This document shows positions 4,190 to 56,335 of a stretch of 64,000 nucleotides of DNA, piece after piece. How positions within the stretch are numbered: the stretch's first letter is position 1; each line of letters begins with the position of its first letter. The notes under the pieces were generated by a model, which saw only the letters and a list, made by a program, of their open reading frames with translations, was not told where the DNA came from and did no database searches. The position numbers were made by a program, and so were the translations under genes. Origin of the DNA: Sialis fuliginosa (Eukaryota > Arthropoda > Insecta > Megaloptera > Sialidae); contig OY540815.1 in assembly GCA_961205875.1 (NCBI GenBank), positions 4,092,001 through 4,156,000 of the forward strand. The letters are read 5' to 3'.

Positions 4190-5026
4190 TTAATATATAT
4201 ATAAAGCTCAACGTCTCTCTGTCTGTCCGTTAATGCGCTTATCACTAGAAAACCACTTATCCGATTTACGTAGTTTCTTTTTTAATTCATAGGTACATTC
4301 TCTGGCCAGGTTATAGGCTATATTTTGTTACGTTAGGTAACATAACAACTAAGCAGTGACGATAATAGTAAATCAAGTCGGAAAAATGTTGCCATCAGCG
4401 CGCTATTTTGCAATACGCTGCCTAAAAAAGCGTTCAATATTGAACAAAATGATGTATTAAAGAATTAGATAGAATCAAAAAATCTACAATAAAGTCAGCG
4501 ACACCATATGTCTAACTTTTATATTTAAGGCACAATGATTGTTTTTATGTTACAAAGAAAATTTAAAATATTTGGGTTTTGTTTACGTGGACTTATGACC
4601 TGCTAAACATTAATTCTTATCGAAATAAATGATTTCATCATCATAATGTAGATATAATTTGCCCTTTACAGAACCAATTTGGTCTTTTGGATTAGGAAAT
4701 AAAGTGAAATATACATTCAATAACATATTATTCGCGGTAATTCGCGCGAATTATGATGAAGTGTTGCGGAGAGAGGGAAGATTCTGCGCTCGGCCGGCAG
4801 TTGTTTATTTTGTTTTCAATTATTAACTTTTAAATTTAAACAGAACAAAAATTATTTGTAATATTTGTTCTGATTTGTTTTATTTTTAGGTAGGTACGTT
4901 AGGTTTTAATTAGTTATTATTACGATAATAGTTAATCGAGTTTGTACTTAATTCAACTATATTTTTCAAAAATCCTAAACAATAATTCCGTAGTCCAAGC
5001 GGGCGAAGCCCCGCGGACCCCGCTAG
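4190..5026 (-). repeat. Dispersed family G, inverted copy
   Basis: Read on the minus strand it starts with ctagcggggtccgcgg and ends at the alternating TA tail near 4,190. It keeps the shared blocks (taaatcggataagtgg, gcgcattaacggacag). It is longer than the 2.67-kb copy because of extra interior sequence around 4,320-4,800. Confidence 0.65.
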
Positions 5027-5211
5027 TTTATTATAATTGTGAAACGTTTGTTTGTGTTACATTACACTCGAGTAAGGCGAATATGTCCCACTCAATTTTA
5101 GTACAGATTTTCATAGATGAAAATCGGTTTTATTTCTTTTTTTTAAGTTTTTTATCTAAGCATTGATAAAATATTAAATTTTCTAAAGAATCCAGTTACT
5201 TTGTAATCATT

Positions 5212-5523
5212 ATGTATACTTTACACATATACATCCATACATACATACGCACGTACATAAACTCTCTGACTTTCTTGTCTGTTTCCAATGATTTATTGTT
5301 TGTAACATTAAACATGATATATGAAATATTTCCTGCAAGCTCGGTTTCTGATCAAGTAAGACAAATGTTTCCACAAGATGAATTAAAAACGAGAAGTGTA
5401 TTATATGCGGTAAAGTTGGTATTCAAAGCGTGTTTTACTTTCTTGGCTTTTGTGTGTAAGCGACGTCTTATTAAGTGTTGTTTTTTTAAATGTATTTGTT
5501 TTAATATTCAAATATCAAAGTAA
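5212..5523 (+). other. Unassigned 103-codon open frame (doubtful)
   Basis: The frame opens in a CATA-type microsatellite (about 5,220-5,260), so its first residues are simple-sequence product. The middle part (residues about 36-75) is less biased and reads IFPASSVSDQVRQMFPQDEL. A GTAAGA donor-like word lies inside it at about 5,355. I recognise no domain. It could be a chance frame or part of an unknown exon. Confidence 0.12.
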
Positions 5524-5530
5524 ACGTTTT

Positions 5531-6188
5531 AAGGGTTCCGAAAAACCCTATTAATCTCACTTTGTCGTCCGTGCGTCCGTCCTTTTCAGTCAAAGCAAAA
5601 TATCTCGTTAACTATATAGGTAAGCTAGAAACTTGAAACTGTTACTGAACATGTAAAATGATGCCCTCTTGTAAAAGTTGAAAAAATAAGTTTTCAGGAG
5701 CTGAAGTTATGTAAAAAAAATTTTTTTTATACCAAGACATGTGGAATTTCACCCTTTTTCTAAATCAAAAATGACTAAAGCAAATAAAAAAAAAATAAAA
5801 AAATTGTATACCAAGACGTGGGGGTAACAAAATGTAGATCTCAATTAGTAGAATTTGACCATATTTTTAATTTTTTTTCTAACTCAAAAATAGCGCCAGT
5901 AGGGGGTTAAAAGCAGTATTTTATTTTGTCTCCCTCTCTAACTCGGTAACTACCGATTCAAAAAATCTGAAAAAAATTTGGGCTTTGGTGGGGCTACCAA
6001 CGACAAATACTAAAGTCAACAATATCATTTTAAATTTTGGAATAATAGAGAGGGGTGTCATAGAATTTTTATTTTTATATTATTTTCCAACTCAAAAATG
6101 CAGGTGTGGCTCCAAACAGTCCATGTAGTAAGTACATCGAAACCCTTATGGCATAAACCCGTGTATGTCTAGACCGAATTATTTGTAG
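5531..6188 (+). repeat. Dispersed family B
   Basis: It begins aagggttccg and ctattaatctcactttgtcg, followed by cgtgcgtccgtcc. It ends with a gaacccttatggcat-type word and a gaccgaattattt block. The two ends carry GGTTCCG in opposite orientations. Copies also lie at 13,438-14,312 and, inverted, at 24,646-25,277. It is non-coding, and the recurring bait (caacgacaaatactaaagtc) is well conserved between copies. Confidence 0.7.
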
Positions 6189-6521
6189 CTGGGATAGTTA
6201 TAAATAATTATATATTTATAAAATAGTTCATGATGTAAATAAATATTATAATAAATACCGGTTGATCATCCAATAATGTTTTATTTTTATTTTATTTGTA
6301 TGTATGAATGAATGTTACATAACATTTGAATATGACCCCCATCCCCCATCTAACAATATAGCTGTACCTCCCTCCCCCCTAAAAGCGTTATGTGGTTTAT
6401 GAACGTTCCCAAAGTTGAAGTTAAATATTATAACTTTAAATTATACTGGTGACGTCAATAAGTAATGTTTGTAAATTCCAATTTTCTACTTATCACGTAA
6501 CAATTTTTACTAACTATCATT

Positions 6522-6660
6522 AGAGTTGTGCATGCACTTAAGTACAAGTACTTAAGTACTTATGGAGGTAATTGTACTTTTACTTTAATTACTTTTCAAA
6601 TGAACGTAATTAAATACTCTTTCAAAAAAGTATTTTGCACTTGCACATAAATACATTTAT
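6522..6660. repeat. Low-complexity repeat of AAGTACTT words
   Basis: After tagagttgtgcatgcac the sequence is built from overlapping acttaagtac, aagtact and aattactttt words and closes with ttttgcacttgcac. Several hAT-type elements of insects start with a similar tagagttgtgc motif, so this may be a small hAT-derived element. No target duplication is readable. Confidence 0.4.
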
Positions 6661-6747
6661 TAATGTCGCAAAATTAGAATATTAATACATTTTTTTATAA
6701 GCACATTCTCGTAACCCGACTTTTTTTTATTAAGTATCACTCTGCAC

Positions 6748-7265
6748 ATTGGTACCAGTCTTATTGTATTCTTGTTTAATTAAATGTACTACTAAATTAG
6801 AAATATTTGCTGATATTTGATAACTGTCATTACTGAATCATAATCTATAGACACTTAACTGTAAAACAGCTTAATTTGATAACAATCAGCCAATAGGTGT
6901 CGAAATAGTGGACATTCAAACTAATTATTGGTGAAATCTATTTATTAATTATTATATTATCATAGCATCTGATTTACATTGTTTACAATTTTACGATTCT
7001 TTATTTAATAACTTATGTATCGTAGTACTCATCATTATGTATTCATTAGCAAGTGTCCATCACTGGGTACACATTACTGGTTTTATTTTATTCATTACTG
7101 AAGAAAAAACCTAAACAAAATAAAAGACTTGATTGGGTAATTAAAATGATTTAAGAAAGATAGGTAAATTTTATTACAATAGTAACATGATTTCATGATA
7201 ATTACAAAAAAGAAGCCAATCAATTCCAAAAAACAGTATACCTTCATGAACATAAAAAACTGCCT
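6748..7265 (+). repeat. Family H, degraded copy
   Basis: It aligns by eye with the 9.4-kb and 61.1-kb copies: ggtaccagtctt head, the attactgaatcataatcta block, cagcttaatttgataac, and the late gaagaaaaaacctaaac block. The right terminal repeat is lost. A reading frame on the opposite strand at 7,095-7,292 is a by-product of this repeat. Confidence 0.6.
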
Positions 7266-10624: not shown

Positions 10625-11162
10625 CCTTTAGTTACTCGCGATGTGTACCGTAACGCAGTTACTCGCACGGTGTATTTTATACACCACATAAAAGATAGCT
10701 AGTTTTTGGGAATTTTTAAGTTATTATATTAATTTTTTAGCCCAATTCACATTATGTACTATTTATTTTCGAAGAACTAAGAAAATTTTCTTAAAATTAA
10801 CACAATTAAAAATTAAGAATAACAAAAACTAACCAAAATAAATTTAAAAAAGTACACAAAACTGTTCAATATTCAACTTCTGTTTCTTCATGTTGCAATA
10901 AATTGGTGCAAGACTGGCATTTAATCACAGATGTTGAATGTTTTTTGTGTATTTCAGGCACCAAAACAGCAACAATCCAAACATTAACTAACAACACTCT
11001 TGTTACAATTGTTAAATTGTGACTACCGGATACCTATCTCACTCTAGACAGACTAAATAAAAGTTAGGTGGGGGTGTACAGTCCCACAAAAATTTATACA
11101 TTTAGCAATCGCAGAAAATGCGTTGCTGGTGTACAAAATACACCAGCGCGAGTAATTAAGGG
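10625..11162. mobile_element. piggyBac-type element, 538 bp, TTAA flanks
   Basis: TTAA occurs immediately outside both ends (10,621-10,624 and 11,163-11,166). The terminal repeats are CCTTTAGTTACTCGCG at the left and, inverted, CCCTTAATTACTCGCG at the right, followed by subterminal blocks around tgtattttatacacca and gtgtacaaaatacacc. CCYT ends with a TTAA target are the hallmark of piggyBac. A minus-strand stretch near 10,870-10,990 could be a decayed cysteine-bearing tail of the transposase (it reads IKCQSCTNLLQHEE), but that is weak. Confidence 0.8.
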
Positions 11163-11583
11163 TTAAATAAACTGACAATTTCCTTACTTCTAGTTATCCG
11201 ATTTGGCTGAGTTTTATTAGGGTTCTATTCTGATAATAGATGAAGTTAATTCAAATGGATTTCTGCTAATTTATTACGTTTTGCGACCTGTAGCATGCTG
11301 AAATTCTCGACAAATTGAACTTTGTTTATATTTTTATAACAAAAAATTAAAACCAATCGATATTAAACTAAGTAAATATAGAGACTGCAATGTTCTCTTT
11401 CAGAAAAAGTAAATATCTAAATGGGTTACTAAATAAATTTAAGATAGAATGCTCATTTTATCAATGTACACACGTAAAAAAAATTTAGGACGAAAATAGA
11501 ACACACTTTCAAGCATAGCTTGGGGTGTGCAATATATTGCAATATACTTGTGGAATTCTCATTTATTGATTTATTATAATTTT

Positions 11584-18862: not shown

Positions 18863-19519
18863 AGCGGCCCTCACACGATCAATATTACTGACAGTATTAT
18901 TGATCGTGTGATGTGAGTACTGATGTACTGTCAGTATAGAAAAACGATACTGATGACTGATGGAAAAATCGGATATTGAGTCGTCAGTAATTTTATACTG
19001 ATAATAATATTGATGGTGTGAGGTGGATAATGACAGTTTTTCAGTATTATTAGCACAGCGATGGAAGATGCATGTGATGAATGTCCAAACGCGCGAACCA
19101 TGCTTAATAGTTTATTATAGATGTTAATGTTCATTCGAAAATAATTGTGATAGTCTTTTGGGTCGGAAAGCTGGATTTCTTTTAAAAGATTTAAATGACA
19201 ATACTTTTTACGTTTGGCAATCCATTCATTTACCCATCGCTTCCTATTAGTAATCTGTTTACTTGGAATAGAAAATGCTAAAATAATTGCTACGCACGCT
19301 TTACGACGATTTTCGTCCATTATAATAAAATAACTTTTTTAAAAATAAATTGACAATCTTTGACAGTTGACACTGCTGTTCATCGAAGTTCGCATCTTCA
19401 CCAGTCGAATGCCAAACAAACTGAGCATTGACAATAATATATTCTGACCATGTGAGGAGTACACTGTCAGTAATGTAAACAATTATACTGTCAGTATTAC
19501 TGATCGTGTGAGGTCAGCT
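18863..19519 (-). mobile_element. PIF/Harbinger element, internally deleted, 657 bp
   Basis: The terminal repeats start AGCGGCCCTCACACGATCA at the left and, inverted, AGCTGACCTCACACGATCA at the right, with tactgacag further in. TTA is duplicated on both sides (18,860-18,862 and 19,520-19,522), the usual TWA target of PIF/Harbinger. The element keeps only the first part of a transposase frame on the minus strand. Subterminal copies of tactgaYagta and gatcgtgtga recur inside. Confidence 0.85.
18931..19320 (-). pseudogene. Truncated PIF/Harbinger transposase, N-terminal part
   Basis: A 129-codon minus-strand frame starts at the ATG at 19,318-19,320. Residues about 27-73 match the pattern of the region ahead of the catalytic domain in HARBI1-like nucleases: RKRWVNEWIAKRKKYCHLNL, then a leader, then DPKDYHNYFRMNINIYNKLL. 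In this family that segment precedes the DDE nuclease that cuts at TWA targets. Here the frame leaves the family after about residue 75 and runs out into the left terminal repeat; no catalytic acidic residues remain. Family length is usually over 300 residues, so this copy cannot move by itself. Identification is by motif pattern only. Confidence 0.7.
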
Positions 19520-34542: not shown

Positions 34543-35490
34543 CATCATTTTTGTTTTATTAATATCTGCACTGTTTATTAATTATTTTGTGGTTTTAAAT
34601 TATCAATTTGCTCAGTTTTGTGTTACCAAAACTAAAACCGAGAAACGTTAGCGATGGAACAAGATTTAAATTATTATTATTGACAAGGAGTCTTTACATA
34701 GGCGTGATGTCAAAAATGCGCCATGACACCTGCGAGCGTTTTGTCGTCAAATTCAAAATTAGTTTTAAAAGAGTCAATTTTTGTGATTAAACCTTTATTT
34801 TCTGTAGAAATAAGTAATTTTTTTGGAAATAGGAGACACGTAAAATCATCAAAAAATAGTTTTTAAAAATTAGGCATCCTGCCTATTATAATTATATTTT
34901 AGGTCATAAAATTCTACATTTCAGACGTTTGGAGAAGCCTATTTCCTTCATGAAGAAAAAGCCGATTTAAGTCGCGTTTTCAATAATTCATCCTCGATCA
35001 ATATCTAAAACAAAAATTTCCTCGTTTTATAAATCTTAGAGGTTTTATTGAAACATATTTAGATATTTTGAAATATCCCATATTTTCATATTATATCCCT
35101 ACTGCAATTTTAATTATCGTTTAATTGTGATGACACGTATCAACCAACAAAATTTAAATCATTTACTAATTTTATCCAGGAGCTAAAATATTTTATAAAC
35201 AACATAAAATACGCAAATCCAACTCTGCCTGGAAAGACGGATAAATTAATGAGATGGGAAACAAAGATTCCATTTGAGCTGCAGAATCATATTTTTGGTT
35301 TGACGGTTTTGTTGAAATTAATTCTTCACTTCATTTTATTACTTTGTTAGGATATACGTACAATGTGGTTCTCGTAGATTTGCTTTTTACATATTATGAG
35401 AGATTTTCTCACAAGGGCTTGACACGTTTTTGGGTAATATGGTTCTTACATTCAATTATAATTGTTTAGTTTATTTATTGTACTACTAGC
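34543..35490. other. AT-rich unassigned sequence
   Basis: A 60-codon frame at 34,608-34,790 contains some balanced sequence (residues RHDTCERFVVKFKISF) but I recognise no domain. A slightly GC-richer patch at 35,215-35,290 is also unexplained. Confidence 0.35.
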
Positions 35491-35650
35491 TATGGATCTT
35501 GGCTTCTGGGTGTAAGCCGCGTCGGTTTGGTCGTGTAATCGGCCAACGTTTAGAAGAGCCCTGAAGATGTCCACTGCAATGTGTGACGAAACGTTGGTCG
35601 ATAACACGACCAAACCGTCGCGGCTTACACTCAGAAGCCAAGATCCATAT
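35491..35650. mobile_element. Inverted-repeat remnant with hammerhead (Penelope-like)
   Basis: The arms atggatcttggcttctg/gggtgtaagccgcg and cgcggcttacact/cagaagccaagatccat are near-perfect inverse copies, followed inward by tcggtttggtcgtgtaatc and gataacacgaccaaacc. A hammerhead-like core lies between them. Penelope-like elements carry hammerheads in repeats that can lie in inverted arrangement, which is the most economical source. No reverse transcriptase or GIY-YIG sequence is present. Confidence 0.55.
35529..35611 (+). ncRNA. Hammerhead-ribozyme-like motif (CUGAAGA...GAAA)
   Basis: The core CTGAAGA (35,561-35,567) and GAAA (35,588-35,591) are separated by a 20-nt arm in which gtc-cac pairs with gtg-tgac with one bulge. 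After GAAA, AC and GT can close a 2-bp stem III round GTTG, giving a GGTC cleavage site after 35,599. The distal stem I pairs ggtcgtgtaatc (35,529-35,540) with gataacacgacc (35,600-35,611); about 20 nt before the core remain unpaired, which may impair activity. Confidence 0.5.
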
Positions 35651-35707
35651 CAAGATCACCGTGGAAGCCTCAAGACTTGTACAGTAGTAAGCTGTAAACT
35701 AAAAATT

Positions 35708-35765: not shown

Positions 35766-36670
35766 AAAATATATAAAAATATTAAATTATACATTTAAAA
35801 AAGTAAATATAGAATACAAATAAACCTCTGCATAAAAATGAGACTTATAGACTAGGGAATTACTGATCCTGGATATTAATATTAATGAAAATCTAAGATT
35901 TAACATCAAAAGACTAAAAAAAATCTATAATTTACAATGATCACGTCTCTTTCAAATATTTTGTCGAACAATTGGATAATTTTTCACATCCAAGAAAGGT
36001 AAAATATCGAAATTGATTATGATTGTTGCTAACCTATTTATTTATTTATTTTAATTTCTATACAAATTCTTGGAAGTTGCAAAAATAATTTTACACAATT
36101 TTTTTTAGTAACTACGGAACGATTATTCCAGTTTTCACTAATGGATGGGTTAGGTCAAGCCTTAAGTAATTTATTTAAATGTAAAAATTAAGAAGAATTT
36201 TTACAATAACACCGGGCCTAATGTGCCAAATTCTACATTTTTAATCTGTGACACAAACGACAACTATAAGCGATCAGCATACACTAAACATAATTATAGG
36301 AAGGTGTCTAATTAGTAATTTGTGCAGACTGCAGAAAGAGGGTACTTCTGCACAAAATCATTGTAATTATAAAACTTCCAAGGCCTGAATACTCGAGCGT
36401 TAATATAAATATCGAATTTAACCCGTTTGAAATTTATAGATTTCGAAAATAGTTTTTTAAACTGTAAAAATGCACCAATCTGAATTATTTTTGGGGAAAA
36501 TGTTTGTCACAGTAAGTACTCCAGACTTATTGATTTTGGTGCTAATCGGATTAGGAGTTTTGGAAATATTCGAAATTTTGTATCTTTTTTCGTCTAAAAA
36601 GTGAACGTTGCTTGGAAATAAATGCAACTAAATTCAGATTGACAAATTAGTTGTTCTACGAATGTGTATT
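35766..36670. other. AT-rich unassigned sequence
   Basis: No terminal repeats, coding frames or family blocks are seen before the start of the giant palindrome. Confidence 0.4.
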
Positions 36671-39600
36671 TAGTATAGTCAAAATAGATTTTGAGCGGAA
36701 TTCTCTGGGAACAGCAAAATTTTTATACCATAATGTAGGGGGGACATTGTAGTTTCACCACCCAAAAGTCCCACGAGCTAAACCTTGTGCTAACTCGGGG
36801 AACCCCATTCAAAGTTGGATTTTGTGCAAATATTTGTTCATTTTTCTAGCTCATAAAAATACAGATATCTCGAGAACAAAAGTAGATATCGAAAAAAATG
36901 TTGCTGTTTTAGAATTGCTATAAAATACCCAACAATATGACTAAATAATATTAGAACCTATACTCAAACGTTTAGGTGTCACGTTCATTTGTTTATCAAA
37001 AATCGCTGTAATTTTATTGTTTTTTCAATTCCATACTTTTTCATTACATTATTAAGTATGAAAAAAAAATTGTTTTTTACTTTTTGTAATTTTTATCTTA
37101 TTCTACGTTTAATTTCCTTGAAAAATCTGTCATGGATTTTGATTTAAAAAAATTGTGTGAACACGTAAATAAAATTTCAAAAAAGTATTATTTAGTTTGC
37201 AAATTAAATGAATGTTAAATTAACTGTATACGGTTTTTCAAATACATTAAATATTTCATCAACCCGTCATACTATCTGCAAAATTTTAGGTATTTTGGAA
37301 TCGCTATGAAATTTGAATAATATTATAGGTGCACAGAAAAAAATATTTAAACACTGTGAACATATATGGGGCGGTTTTTTAGGAAACTGCATAAAAATTA
37401 CAGTCTATGAATTCATACATGGCTGTGCTCCTTTAAATAATTCCTAGTACTATGATGTCTGTTACATATATAGTGCCCATGCATGTACGTTTATATAAAA
37501 AAAATTTCCGCGATTAAACCATTCAAAAAAAAATTACAGTCATTTTAACTTGTGAACTGAATTTTATTTTTTCGTGATTTGGTATAATCAAGATATCTCC
37601 TAAACAAATGAAGATACATGCAAGTACCATCACATCAAAATACGTAAAATTTTATGTGCTACAACTTTTATGAAAAGTATTTTTTGTTATCTTTATTCTA
37701 AATGGTTAATAAATCTACGCGAAAATTTATTTTTAGAGGGGCCGACGAAAAATAAGCTAGTTTTGATTTTTTTCTGGCCATAATGTGAAGAATTGATAAA
37801 AAATAAGTAACACTAATTTTAGAGGATAATAATTTGCAAACTCTCTGAAAATTAAATTTTAATAGGATTATATATAACAGAAATATTTAATTTTAAAGTG
37901 CTCAAAAAAATGACATTTTACATCAAGATTGTTGTACAGAGTAAGCTATGGAAATTAACACTGTGCAGAGAAAAACATTGACGAAGTTAAAAATTGGGAA
38001 AGATGTTACCAAATATCTATAGTTTGTTATAATAAACCATTATCAGTAATAAAATTTTTAATTCAACCCCTATATTGAAAAAACTACCCTTAGTGTATAA
38101 CTCTCAACTTATGTTCTCGATTTTCATGAAAACGGTATATCGCACGAAAAAATTGTATGGAACTAATTGTGTAGAGAGTAAAATTTGCAATTGATAACAA
38201 ATAACATATTAATTGAGTTATTTAAAATTACGGCGTTATTCAAAGGTTTATAAACGAGGCCAAAAAACATATTAAATGTTGGTTATTTCTGAAAGGCACA
38301 GATATTTTTTTGCCAAACTTTGAAAATATAAACTACTTACACTATTAAATAGTCACACCAAATTCCCAATCGATCAATGCCACAGAAAAAAAGTTATAGC
38401 CAGTTTAATTTAAAAAAAATTTATCAAAAGTGTGAATTTTGTAATATTGATATGCTGTTATAATCAAAATTTACGAAAATTTTTCATATCAATATAAGTC
38501 TCTTAAACATTCTGATATTTATTTGAAATTTCACAATAATGATAGCTGTAGTTTAATTTCAATGCTCAGTAATTAACAATTGTGTATGCTAATTTATAAG
38601 GTTTTTACAGCTCTATAAGTGCGCAAAAATTAAAAGTGTTAATTTTAAATTCCAAAACAAAAATATTCCAAAATTGTTTACACCAAAATAAAGATAAAAC
38701 TAGCACTTTTACATATTTCATAAAATTATTAGATCCCTTTAGTTTTTAAATGATAACATAATATCAATGTGCTATTTAATCTACCCTATGACACCAACCT
38801 CTAAATTAAGATTATGAGGAATATATGAAGTTGGTCCATAAAGTTTCATAAATCTTTATAAGATCTTACAAACAAATACAGAGATTGTCAATTCATCAAT
38901 AAAATTTATAAAAAATTGAGTAGATACCCCAAATCGTCAAAATTAAAAAATAATATTTTTGAATTCTAAACTTTGATTTTGTCTATAATTATTACATTCG
39001 CTTTGTTTTAACTTGTAGTGAACCTACTTTCAAGGGTTAACATCTCCCATTATATGTTTAAATTTTTTTAAAGATAAGGAATAGTTTAACATATTTTGCA
39101 TTCAATATTTTGTTATTTTAACGAATGAATCCTTTTTTTATGTCATCTCATTTAATTAATTTAGTTTCAATAAAAACGGTGTAGTGAATTGAAAGGTTAA
39201 TAAATAGGTAGTTGTTAATATTATATTTTGCTTTTATTGATAAATATACAATCTCTATATTTGTTCGTAAGACCTTATAAAGATTTTTCAAACATTCTGG
39301 ACCAACTTCATATATTCCTCATAATCTTAATTTAGGGGTTGGTGTCATAGGGTAGATTAAATAGCACATTGATATTATGTTATCATTTAAAAACTAAAGG
39401 GATTTAATAATTTTATGAAATATGTAAAAATGCTAGTTTTATCTTCATTTTGGTGTAAACAATTTTTGAATATTTTTGTTTTGGAATTGAAAATTAACAC
39501 TTTTAATTTTTGCGCACTTATAGAGCTGTAAAAACCTTATAATTTAACATACACAATTGTTAATTACTGGGTATTGAAAATAAACTATAGCCATCATTAT

Positions 39601-41475
39601 TGTGAAATTTCAAATAAATATCAGAATTTTTAAGAGACTTATAATGTTATGAAAAATTTTCGTAAATTTTGATTATAACAGCATATCAATATTACAAAAT
39701 TCACACTTTTGATAATTTTTTTTAAAATTAAACTGGCTATAACTTTTTTTCTGTGGCATTGATCGATTGGGAACTTGGTGTGACTTTATAATAGTGTAAG
39801 TAGTTTATATTTACAAAGTTTGGCAAAAAAATGTCTGTGCCTTTCAGAAATAACCAACATTTAATATGTTTTTTGGCCTCGTTTATAAACCTTTGAATAA
39901 CGCCGTAATTTTAAATAACTCAATTAATATGTTATTTGTTATCAATTGCAAATTTTACTCTCTACACAATTAGTTCCATACATTTTTTTCGTGCGATATA
40001 CCGTTTTCATGAAAATCGAGAACATAAGTTGAGAGTTATACACTAAGGGTAGTTTTTTCAATATAGGGGTTGAATTAAAAATTTTATTACTGATAATGGT
40101 TTATTATAACAAACTATAGATATTTGGTAACATCTTTCCCAATTTTTAACTTCGTCAATGTTTTTCTCTGCACAGTGTTAATTTCCATAGCTTACTCTGT
40201 ACAACAATCTTGATGTAAAATGTCATTTTTTTGAGCACTTTAAAATTAAATATTTCTGTTATATATAATCCTATTAAAATTTAATTTTCAGAGAGTTTGC
40301 AAATTATTATCCTCTAAAATTAGTGTTACTTATTTTTTATCAATTCTTCACATTAGGGCCAGAAAAAAATCAAAACTAGCTTATTTTTCGTCGGCCCCTC
40401 TAAAAATAAATTTTCGCGTAGATTTATTAACCATTTAGAATAAAGATAACAAAAAATACTTTTCATAAAAGTTGTAGCACATAAAATTTTACGTATTTTG
40501 ATGTGATGGTACTTGCATGTATCTTCATTTGTTTAGGAGATATCTTGATTATACCAAATCACGAAAAAATAAAATTCAGTTCACAAGTTAAAATGACTGT
40601 AATTTTTTTTTGAATGGTTTAATCGCGGAAATTTTTTTTATATAAACGTACATGCATGGGCACTATATATGTAACAGACATCATAGTACTAGGAATTATT
40701 TAAAGGAGCACAGCCATGTATGAATTCATAGACTGTAATTTTTATGCAGTTTCCTAAAAAACCGCCCCATATATGTTCACAGTGTTTAAAAATTTTTTTC
40801 TGTGCACCTATAATATTATTCAAATATCACAGCGATTCCAAAATACCTAAAATTTTGCAGATAGTATGACGGGTTGATGAAATATTTAATGTATTTGAAA
40901 AACCGTATACAGTTAATTTAACATTCATTTAATTTGCAAACTAAATAATACTTTTTTGAAATTTTATTTACGTGTTCACACAATTTTTTTAAATCAAAAT
41001 CCATGACAGATTTTTCAAGGAAATTAAACGTAGAATAAGATAAAAATTACAAAAAGTAAAAAACAATTTTTTTTTCATACTTAATAATGTAATGAAAAAG
41101 TATGGAATTGAAAAAACAATAAAATTACAGCGATTTTTGATAAACAAATGAACGTGACACCTAAACATTTGAGTATAGGTTCTAATATTATTTAGTCATA
41201 TTGTTGGGTATTTTATAGCAATTCTAAAACAGCAACATTTTTTTCGATATCTACTTTTGTTCTCGAGATATCTGTATTTTTATGAGCTAGAAAAATGAAC
41301 AAATATTTGCACAAAATCCAACTTTGAATGGGGCTCCCCGAGTTAGCACAAGGTTTAGCTCGTGGGACTTTTGGGTGGTGAAACTACAATGTCCCCCCTA
41401 CATTATGGTATAAAAATTTTGCTGTTCCCAGAGAATTCCGCTCGACGTGTTTTTTGAGTTATTTTTACTATACTA
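36671..41475. mobile_element. Giant foldback (palindromic) element, ~4.8 kb
   Basis: Two arms of about 2.2 kb face each other: 36,671-38,906 and 39,232-41,475. The outer ends read TAGTATAGTcaaaata and, inverted, TAGTATAGTaaaaata, so a TA dinucleotide borders each end, as for Tc1/mariner insertions. In about 300 bp of outer arm that I compared base by base (from 36,721 and back from 41,420), only two substitutions appeared. A GC-richer block near each end (cacccaaaagtcccacgagc) is shared by both. No frame of note occurs in the arms or the loop. If transcribed it would give a very long hairpin RNA. An inverted assembly join is possible, but the arm differences and unique loop argue against it. 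Confidence 0.85.
38907..39231. other. Loop of the giant foldback
   Basis: About 325 bp between the arms, AT-rich, with no counterpart in inverse orientation. It contains no recognisable gene or internal repeat. The transition from arm to loop is gradual at the left (cagagattgtcaattcatc) and right (gataaatatacaatctct). Confidence 0.7.
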
Positions 41476-41639
41476 ATTATGTTTTTGACATTAGGACATT
41501 AGAAAACTAATATTTATTACAAATGGCAATAACAGCTGTAACCGTCGTAAGTATATATGTATGTTTTTTATGTATTACGAAATTTATATTCATAGTAGTA
41601 GGTAGGTTATATAAATAATTTTTTTTTTTTAATTTATAT

Positions 41640-55442: not shown

Positions 55443-56335
55443 ATCTAGAGTAATACACTTGTTCCAACGGTCCTCTAATATTTCGATACCGTTCTTCTAG
55501 TGGTTCGCGTCAAGTCCCTCAAAATAGGCATTTTTTCCAGTTCGACCTCTTCATTAGAGTAAAATCTTTTACTAGAGAGCCATATTTTCAATTTCGAGAA
55601 AAGGTAGTAGTCGCTGGGGGGCAGATCAGGATAATACGGTAGGTGCGAAACCAATTCATAGCGCAATTCCTCAATTTATCGGTCGTAACGTGAGTCTTGT
55701 GAGATATCTTGGTAAAACAGCATTTTTGCTACCTATCGCGCGCAAAGCTTTTTCATATGTAAATATTCATTAAGGATATGACCAACACGTTCTTTTGAGA
55801 TGCCTATGGTATTAGTTAGCCCACTCACTTTCACTTTGCGGTCATTCAACATAATTTCACGAATTTTTCTAATGTTTTCTGGAGTAACTGCCTCATTTGG
55901 CCTTCCTGAACGTGGCACATCATTTGTGCTCGTATAGTCCCGACGAAACTCAGCAAACCAATATTTTACGGTTGAATTAGCTGGGGCAGACGTACCGTAA
56001 CACTTATCAAGCAATTCCTCTGTTTGGGCAATATTTTTTCCCATCAATAAACAATATTTAAACAAAACACGAAATTCACTTTTTTCCACAATTAAAAAAA
56101 TAATAAAAGTAGCGTCACTTCGAAGGCTGTAATTTGTACAAGAGTACATGAAATGTTGACAGTATTCTAGTTAAGGTTGGTACTCTATGGGAAATATATG
56201 GATTTTTTGTTTATGTCGCCATCTGTATGTCAGGACAAATACTTTTGAGCCCATGTAGTATATAATATTCTTTTTAAATATTTTTTCTACTGAATAATTA
56301 GAAAAAAAATAATTTAGTGATTGACTTCAAAAGTA

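Follow-up and report, generated by a model that had tools for sequence, protein, structure and literature searches.

Long palindromes are normally fragile and their upkeep is best known from single cases on sex chromosomes, those of primates being kept alike by arm-to-arm conversion. Among mobile elements, Galileo, a member of the P superfamily in Drosophila, offers a described system of comparable design. The accessible parts of two reports describe terminal inverted repeats (TIRs) that are 98-100% alike within one copy and propose recombination and conversion between them (PMC3573991, PMC4168063); a target duplication of 7 bp is also given (PMC4168063). For Anopheles, the accessible part of one source lists 32 clusters of foldback or palindromic MITE-like repeats of 430-1678 nt with TIRs of 18-204 nt, six of them palindromic (PMC3212995). 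Conversion from arm to arm is likewise described, in the text available to us, as keeping the arms of sex-chromosome palindromes alike (PMC7023750).

We analysed a stretch of 64,000 nucleotides (hereafter the window; contig C7, 4092001-4156000) together with the genome from which it is taken (392,097,322 bases in 20 contigs). Self-comparison of the window revealed two inverted arms of 2226 nt each, 98% complementary and 327 nt apart, within an element of 4805 bp, in agreement with the initial annotation, which had described a 4.8-kb palindrome with inverse arms of about 2.2 kb. The features of the element are as follows.

36668-36670, no strand: left target-site duplication ATT, a direct repeat (ATT/ATT) abutting the element
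36671-41475, plus strand: whole palindromic non-autonomous element, TAGTATAGT...ACTATACTA, 4805 bp (self-comparison, copy alignment and end pairs)
36671-36697, plus strand: left-type terminus TAGTATAGTCAAAATAGATTTTGAGCG, a 27-mer with 57 genome matches at up to 3 mismatches (reversed control, 0)
36679-38904, plus strand: left arm, 2226 nt (self-comparison)
38905-39231, plus strand: spacer (loop), 327 nt, which other copies hold in either orientation relative to the ends
39232-41457, minus strand: right arm, an inverse copy of the left arm (self-comparison)
41439-41475, minus strand: right-type terminus, TAGTATAGTAAAAATAACTCAAAAAACACGTCGAGCG read inward, a 37-mer with 53 genome matches at up to 3 mismatches (reversed control, 0)
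41476-41478, no strand: right target-site duplication ATT, a direct repeat with the left ATT

The self-alignment of the arms, which the initial annotation had proposed, places them 1.8% apart in the window copy (40 unequal positions among 2198 aligned). The termini are mirrored over their first 9 bases, beyond which the outermost 27 bp or so on the left differ from the outermost 37 bp or so on the right. As had also been noted from the sequence, the palindrome lacks a substantial reading frame: no stop-to-stop frame within the element exceeds 68 codons, and a Pfam scan of seven of its twelve frames of at least 50 codons (the other five being mirror copies) gave no match at the cut-off.

When the outer 300 bp were used to query the genome, 174 candidates were obtained, at least 40 of which were confirmed as matches. 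Left and right termini no more than 9 kb apart make up 40 inverted pairs, one of them the window copy; the palindrome is therefore beyond chance, because 39 further end pairs exist while the reversed control patterns match nowhere. The initial annotation had envisaged that a search with the outer ends might find no other copy; neither this nor the inverted join in the assembly that it also named agrees with what the assembly shows. The pairs are 4.70-4.85 kb long in 29 cases; the other 11 measure 171, 508, 578, 3424, 3674, 3869, 4282, 4292, 4348, 4603 and 7025 bp, and no partner was seen for 19 left ends and 11 right ends. The three shortest derivatives keep the family ends within 3 mismatches, and the longest pair (L029) holds about 2.2 kb of additional sequence. 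In L013, L018, L015/L033 and L017, deletions have removed some of the palindrome's central part; one internal deletion is common to L015 and L033, which lie at two separate insertion sites. The one-armed loci inspected (L014, L035-L040) consist of truncated arms, 53-1027 bp long, and the same stretch as the L014 arm carries a reverse-transcriptase gene. Querying the genome with the older of the two L049 arms mostly retrieved copies already known. The family copies have differing host flanks. The palindrome of the window is one copy of a dispersed, mobile, non-coding family of foldback elements.

To place the ends, 19 copies were aligned with that of the window, and their sequences diverge just outside TAGTATAGT...ACTATACTA, a single changed base at the outermost left position of L024 apart. 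Equal 3-mers abut the element in 21 of 26 copies, where mismatched pairs would give 3.6; equal 4-mers do so in 3 (1.0 expected) and equal 2-mers outside TAG...CTA in only 2 (6.4 expected). Once L050 was added and L033 re-anchored, a 3-bp target duplication was found in 23 of 27 insertions; it is absent from L009, L012, L030 and L032, the first two having 4-bp repeats instead. Element-free paralogues of the window site read GTGTATTATG, those at L019 and L020 running through the junction without a gap, and the L028 paralogue is element-free too but carries a deletion just upstream. The L011 site is matched by element-free paralogues at L036, L037 and L012, and the L027 site by an element-free relative, the repeat at about 11151-11535 of the window; in both cases the sequences differ by substitutions, with the junction itself ungapped. 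The paralogue of the putative L010 empty site was too diverged for a junction comparison. Since the register of the direct repeats and the empty sites agree, the target duplication measures 3 bp and is rich in A and T, and TA lies within the element terminus. The TA that the initial annotation had placed beside the ends thus belongs to TAGTATAGT, the window copy is flanked by ATT on either side, and a TA duplication is ruled out by this register and these sites. The empty TA sites for which that annotation had asked exist in so far as element-free paralogues were found at three sites, with a duplication of 3 bp rather than TA. Its two proposals on the nature of the palindrome, a mobile foldback element or the shell of an unknown transposon family, are both supported by the many dispersed copies with defined ends, target duplications and empty sites.

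Inverted ends, a fixed-length duplication, dispersed copies and the lack of coding capacity together characterise the family as a non-autonomous TIR DNA transposon of the MITE/foldback kind. Tc1/mariner elements duplicate TA, and membership was rejected on the 3-bp duplications and the deficit of 2-bp repeats given above. PIF/Harbinger elements combine a 3-bp TWA duplication with a DDE_Tnp_4 transposase; here the length is 3 bp, but TTA or TAA accounts for only 2 of 23 duplications, and the PF13359 match judged by eye to be nearest a copy lies outside the element. CACTA/EnSpm elements also duplicate 3 bp, but end in CACTA/CACTG, whereas the ends found here are TAGTATAGT. Membership in the Galileo lineage or the P superfamily is contradicted by a duplication of 3 bp instead of 7 bp. 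A literature search with the end string TAGTATAGTC returned no transposon paper by title, and the literature on palindromic and long-TIR elements, judged by titles and abstract starts, contained none with these ends. By structure, the family works like foldback elements such as Galileo, with which it shares, as far as the accessible descriptions go, long inverted repeats and many defective two-TIR and solo-TIR copies. In those same descriptions, transposase-bearing copies, internally repetitive TIRs and the 7-bp duplication are particular to Galileo; the present family has 3 bp, no coding copy that we found, and arms that fill nearly the whole element. Like the palindromic MITE-like repeats of Anopheles, in the available description, it is non-coding, palindromic and dispersed, but at almost three times the length of the longest repeat of that list and with arms of 2.2 kb.

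A transposase-bearing partner was sought with the exact terminal 16-mer and 13-mer across the genome, and none was found among the genome end matches, the flanking frames and the PF13359 places. Exact TAGTATAGTCAAA gave 84 matches (reversed control, 52), among which one new inverted pair, the 381-bp L050, was recognised by eye. Inspection of L050 and of six unpaired or divergent ends yielded shorter or degraded relatives only. Ten of the frames of at least 90 codons beside L045-L048 and L037 had no transposase match in Pfam, one of them, at L047, being host-like with a GIPC domain, and the additional 2.2-kb piece of L029 has no frame of 100 codons. A genome search with PF13359 (DDE_Tnp_4) gave at least 146 matches, whose places were compared by eye with the list of ends. 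The match that by eye lies nearest a copy, close to a loop fragment at L052, was considered as a Harbinger-type partner and rejected, as L052 is an old copy with insertions and the fragment lies outside the element. This old copy also contains, at 4836-6986, an extra stretch between 529-bp inverted repeats. It should be noted that, among the matches listed, many DDE_Tnp_4 (Harbinger) sequences crowd on contig C14 at about 2.4-8.1 Mb.

The arms were then compared within and between 17 copies, namely the window copy, 15 near-full-length copies out of 20 fetched regions, and L034; the sequences retrieved cover about half of the paired copies. Omitted were the deleted or truncated L013, L014, L015, L017 and L018, as well as L029, L033 and all short copies. 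Of the 17, 13 have arms that differ by 0.14-0.50%, and the remaining four (the window copy, L019, L020 and L022) have arms 1.8-2.7% apart; mean same-arm distances to other copies amount to 2.2-3.5%. An assembly or library artefact, that is an inverted join, a fold-back chimera or polishing that equalised the arms, is extremely improbable. Long palindromes are prone to such errors and the arms were read from an assembly only; yet 29 near-full-length pairs lie at separate places, 3-bp duplications and empty paralogues accompany them, and the arms are clearly unequal in those four copies. Measured against all other arms, the arms of one copy are mutually closest in only four cases (L012, L016, L022 and L034), while in the other 13 some relative, mostly a recent duplicate, is at least as close as the copy's own other arm. 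The telling cases are therefore lineages without close relatives in the set, such as L016 and L034. In L016 the arms are 0.41% apart and the nearest foreign arm is at 2.56%; 26 of its private substitutions are mirrored in both arms and 4 are on a single arm. The corresponding mirrored and single-arm numbers are 7 and 0 in L034. The opposite balance, which weighs against conversion, is seen in the window copy (0 and 14), in L019 (5 and 20), in L020 (6 and 17) and in L022 (7 and 39), part of the L022 changes clustering beside the spacer, in a weakly aligned stretch. A GC bias of conversion was unsupported (16 AT>GC and 27 GC>AT among mirrored changes, 13 and 42 among single-arm changes; Fisher p=0.18).

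In the tree of arms, no all-left or all-right clades were observed. Over the whole arm, 9 of the 17 copies have arms that are exact sisters of each other, compared with 11 over the outer 1.6 kb and 6 over the inner 0.6 kb; seven of the eight non-sister copies of the whole-arm tree fall in a tight group of recent copies, and the arms of the window copy lie on two branches. Arms that evolved apart would group left with left, which is not the case. The initial annotation had taken the similarity of the arms as a sign of recent origin; even where lineages have diverged by about 3%, the arms of a copy differ by just 0.2-0.5%, which makes youth unnecessary as an explanation and points to homogenisation within lineages, the window copy itself standing at 1.8%. 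The arms of one copy thus appear to overwrite each other, staying alike while the copy lineages drift apart. The combination of lineages 2-3.5% apart with agreeing arms would also be expected if palindromes had arisen several times, by inverted duplication of a diverged one-armed parent, an origin that we hold to be very unlikely: the spacer is homologous in all 17 near-full copies (303-334 bp), and the one-armed loci inspected (L014, L035-L040) are truncated arms.

Homogenisation has limits at either end of the arm. Of the 17 copies, 16 keep left- and right-specific variants at arm positions 8-22 (exception L034), and 16 keep them at 2193-2224, beside the spacer (exception L022). Some lineages carry the whole inner variant set and others (L016, L026-L028 and L034) just its innermost sites; in the four copies with a flipped spacer the set lies on the opposite arm. 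Among 31 scored pairs, 20 have the spacer oriented as in the window and 11 have it inverted, a few of the spacer matches being partial; L021 and L023, whose left arms are 0.46% apart, hold it in opposite orientations. Flipped spacers and a patchy inner set are the outcome to be expected when inverted arms exchange sequence through crossovers and patchy conversion. If, instead, the arms were re-made at each transposition by copying of a hairpin (snap-back) intermediate, new copies would be born with equal arms and resident ones would only decay. The arms 0.2-0.5% apart in recently duplicated lineages accord with such a process, as do the private changes of the window copy, 8 left and 6 right on single arms (14) against none mirrored. 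Snap-back copying should, however, make the termini and the spacer-adjacent bases alike as well, yet side-specific sites are kept in both places, and it does not accommodate flipped spacers; we regard it as unlikely. In eight representative copies, the outermost 200 bp diverge by 1.4%, compared with about 4-5% for the inner 600 bp and 5.6% for the spacer. No clear trend along the arm was seen for private changes (p=0.48 for mirrored and p=0.054 for single-arm ones), and 80 of 106 single-arm variants common to other copies lie in the inner 700 bp or so, the inner third. Exchange between copies probably begins close to the middle of the palindrome, an alternative source of this gradient being constraint on the outer arm.

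What appears to be a trace of copying between arms is found at L033 on contig C3, which has a right-type end on either side of the palindrome. At L033/L042 (C3:26904600-26905700), a 376-bp perfect inverted duplication comprises an element end and host flank: all 376 bases are identical, 41 of them belonging to the element end and 335 bp to the flank. The inverted flank is followed by a 22-base left end, the original one, kept outside, with the join 22 bp inside that end, and the outermost ends have a common target duplication TCA. We read this as copying that began inside a resident element, crossed the opposite arm and ran 335 bp into the flank, before being joined at a short shared CAA (read by eye). 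The event took place in a resident copy because host flank was copied, which again argues against snap-back copying. L034 also has two right-type ends, with its target duplication AGT intact. The nearest-arm result does not alter our weighting, because three lines of evidence are independent of that comparison: the mirrored private changes, the inverted spacers and the overrun at L033. These same three lines support conversion here, unlike in Galileo.

Taken together, arm-templated gene conversion with crossover fits best. The family is likely a non-autonomous transposon with giant inverted repeats and a 3-bp duplication that depends on an outside transposase, its palindrome being maintained by arm-to-arm gene conversion with crossover; movement would be by cut-and-paste, with transposase made elsewhere. 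An arm that is broken or unwound would invade the other arm and be re-synthesised from it, a crossover within the same exchange would invert the spacer, and copying past the element end would drag host flank along. The break probably arises in the central part, at a hairpin or cruciform that would be cut there; its repair could use another copy, giving a mosaic inner arm, and failed repair could produce the central deletions of the shorter copies. Given arm conversion, spacer-flipping crossover and flank overrun, the palindrome would owe its state to maintenance and not simply to youth, and arm similarity cannot date such an element. As in sex-chromosome palindromes, in the accessible account of them, the arms appear to stay alike by conversion within a chromosome; unlike those, the palindrome described here is mobile and has inserted at dozens of separate places. 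With so many insertions of one 4.8-kb palindrome, the balance of breakage, deletion and arm repair becomes measurable in replicate. It is conceivable, if doubtful, that the family represents an undescribed superfamily (TAGTATAGT ends, AT-rich 3-bp duplication) whose palindrome is an adaptation for arm-templated repair of a self-inflicted break at the centre; the element would then carry its own repair template and survive without coding for anything.

Other features of the window include, on the minus strand at 18931-19338, a frame of 135 codons that resembles by eye the start of a Harbinger-type transposase and has no significant match in Pfam, and, at 55733-56170 on the same strand, a helix-turn-helix fragment of mariner (Mos1-type; HTH_48, E=1.1e-7). 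A small inverted repeat at 35486-35654 has arms of 66 nt that are 91% complementary and 37 nt apart; related sequence lies beside the L020 copy and also in L013 and L040.
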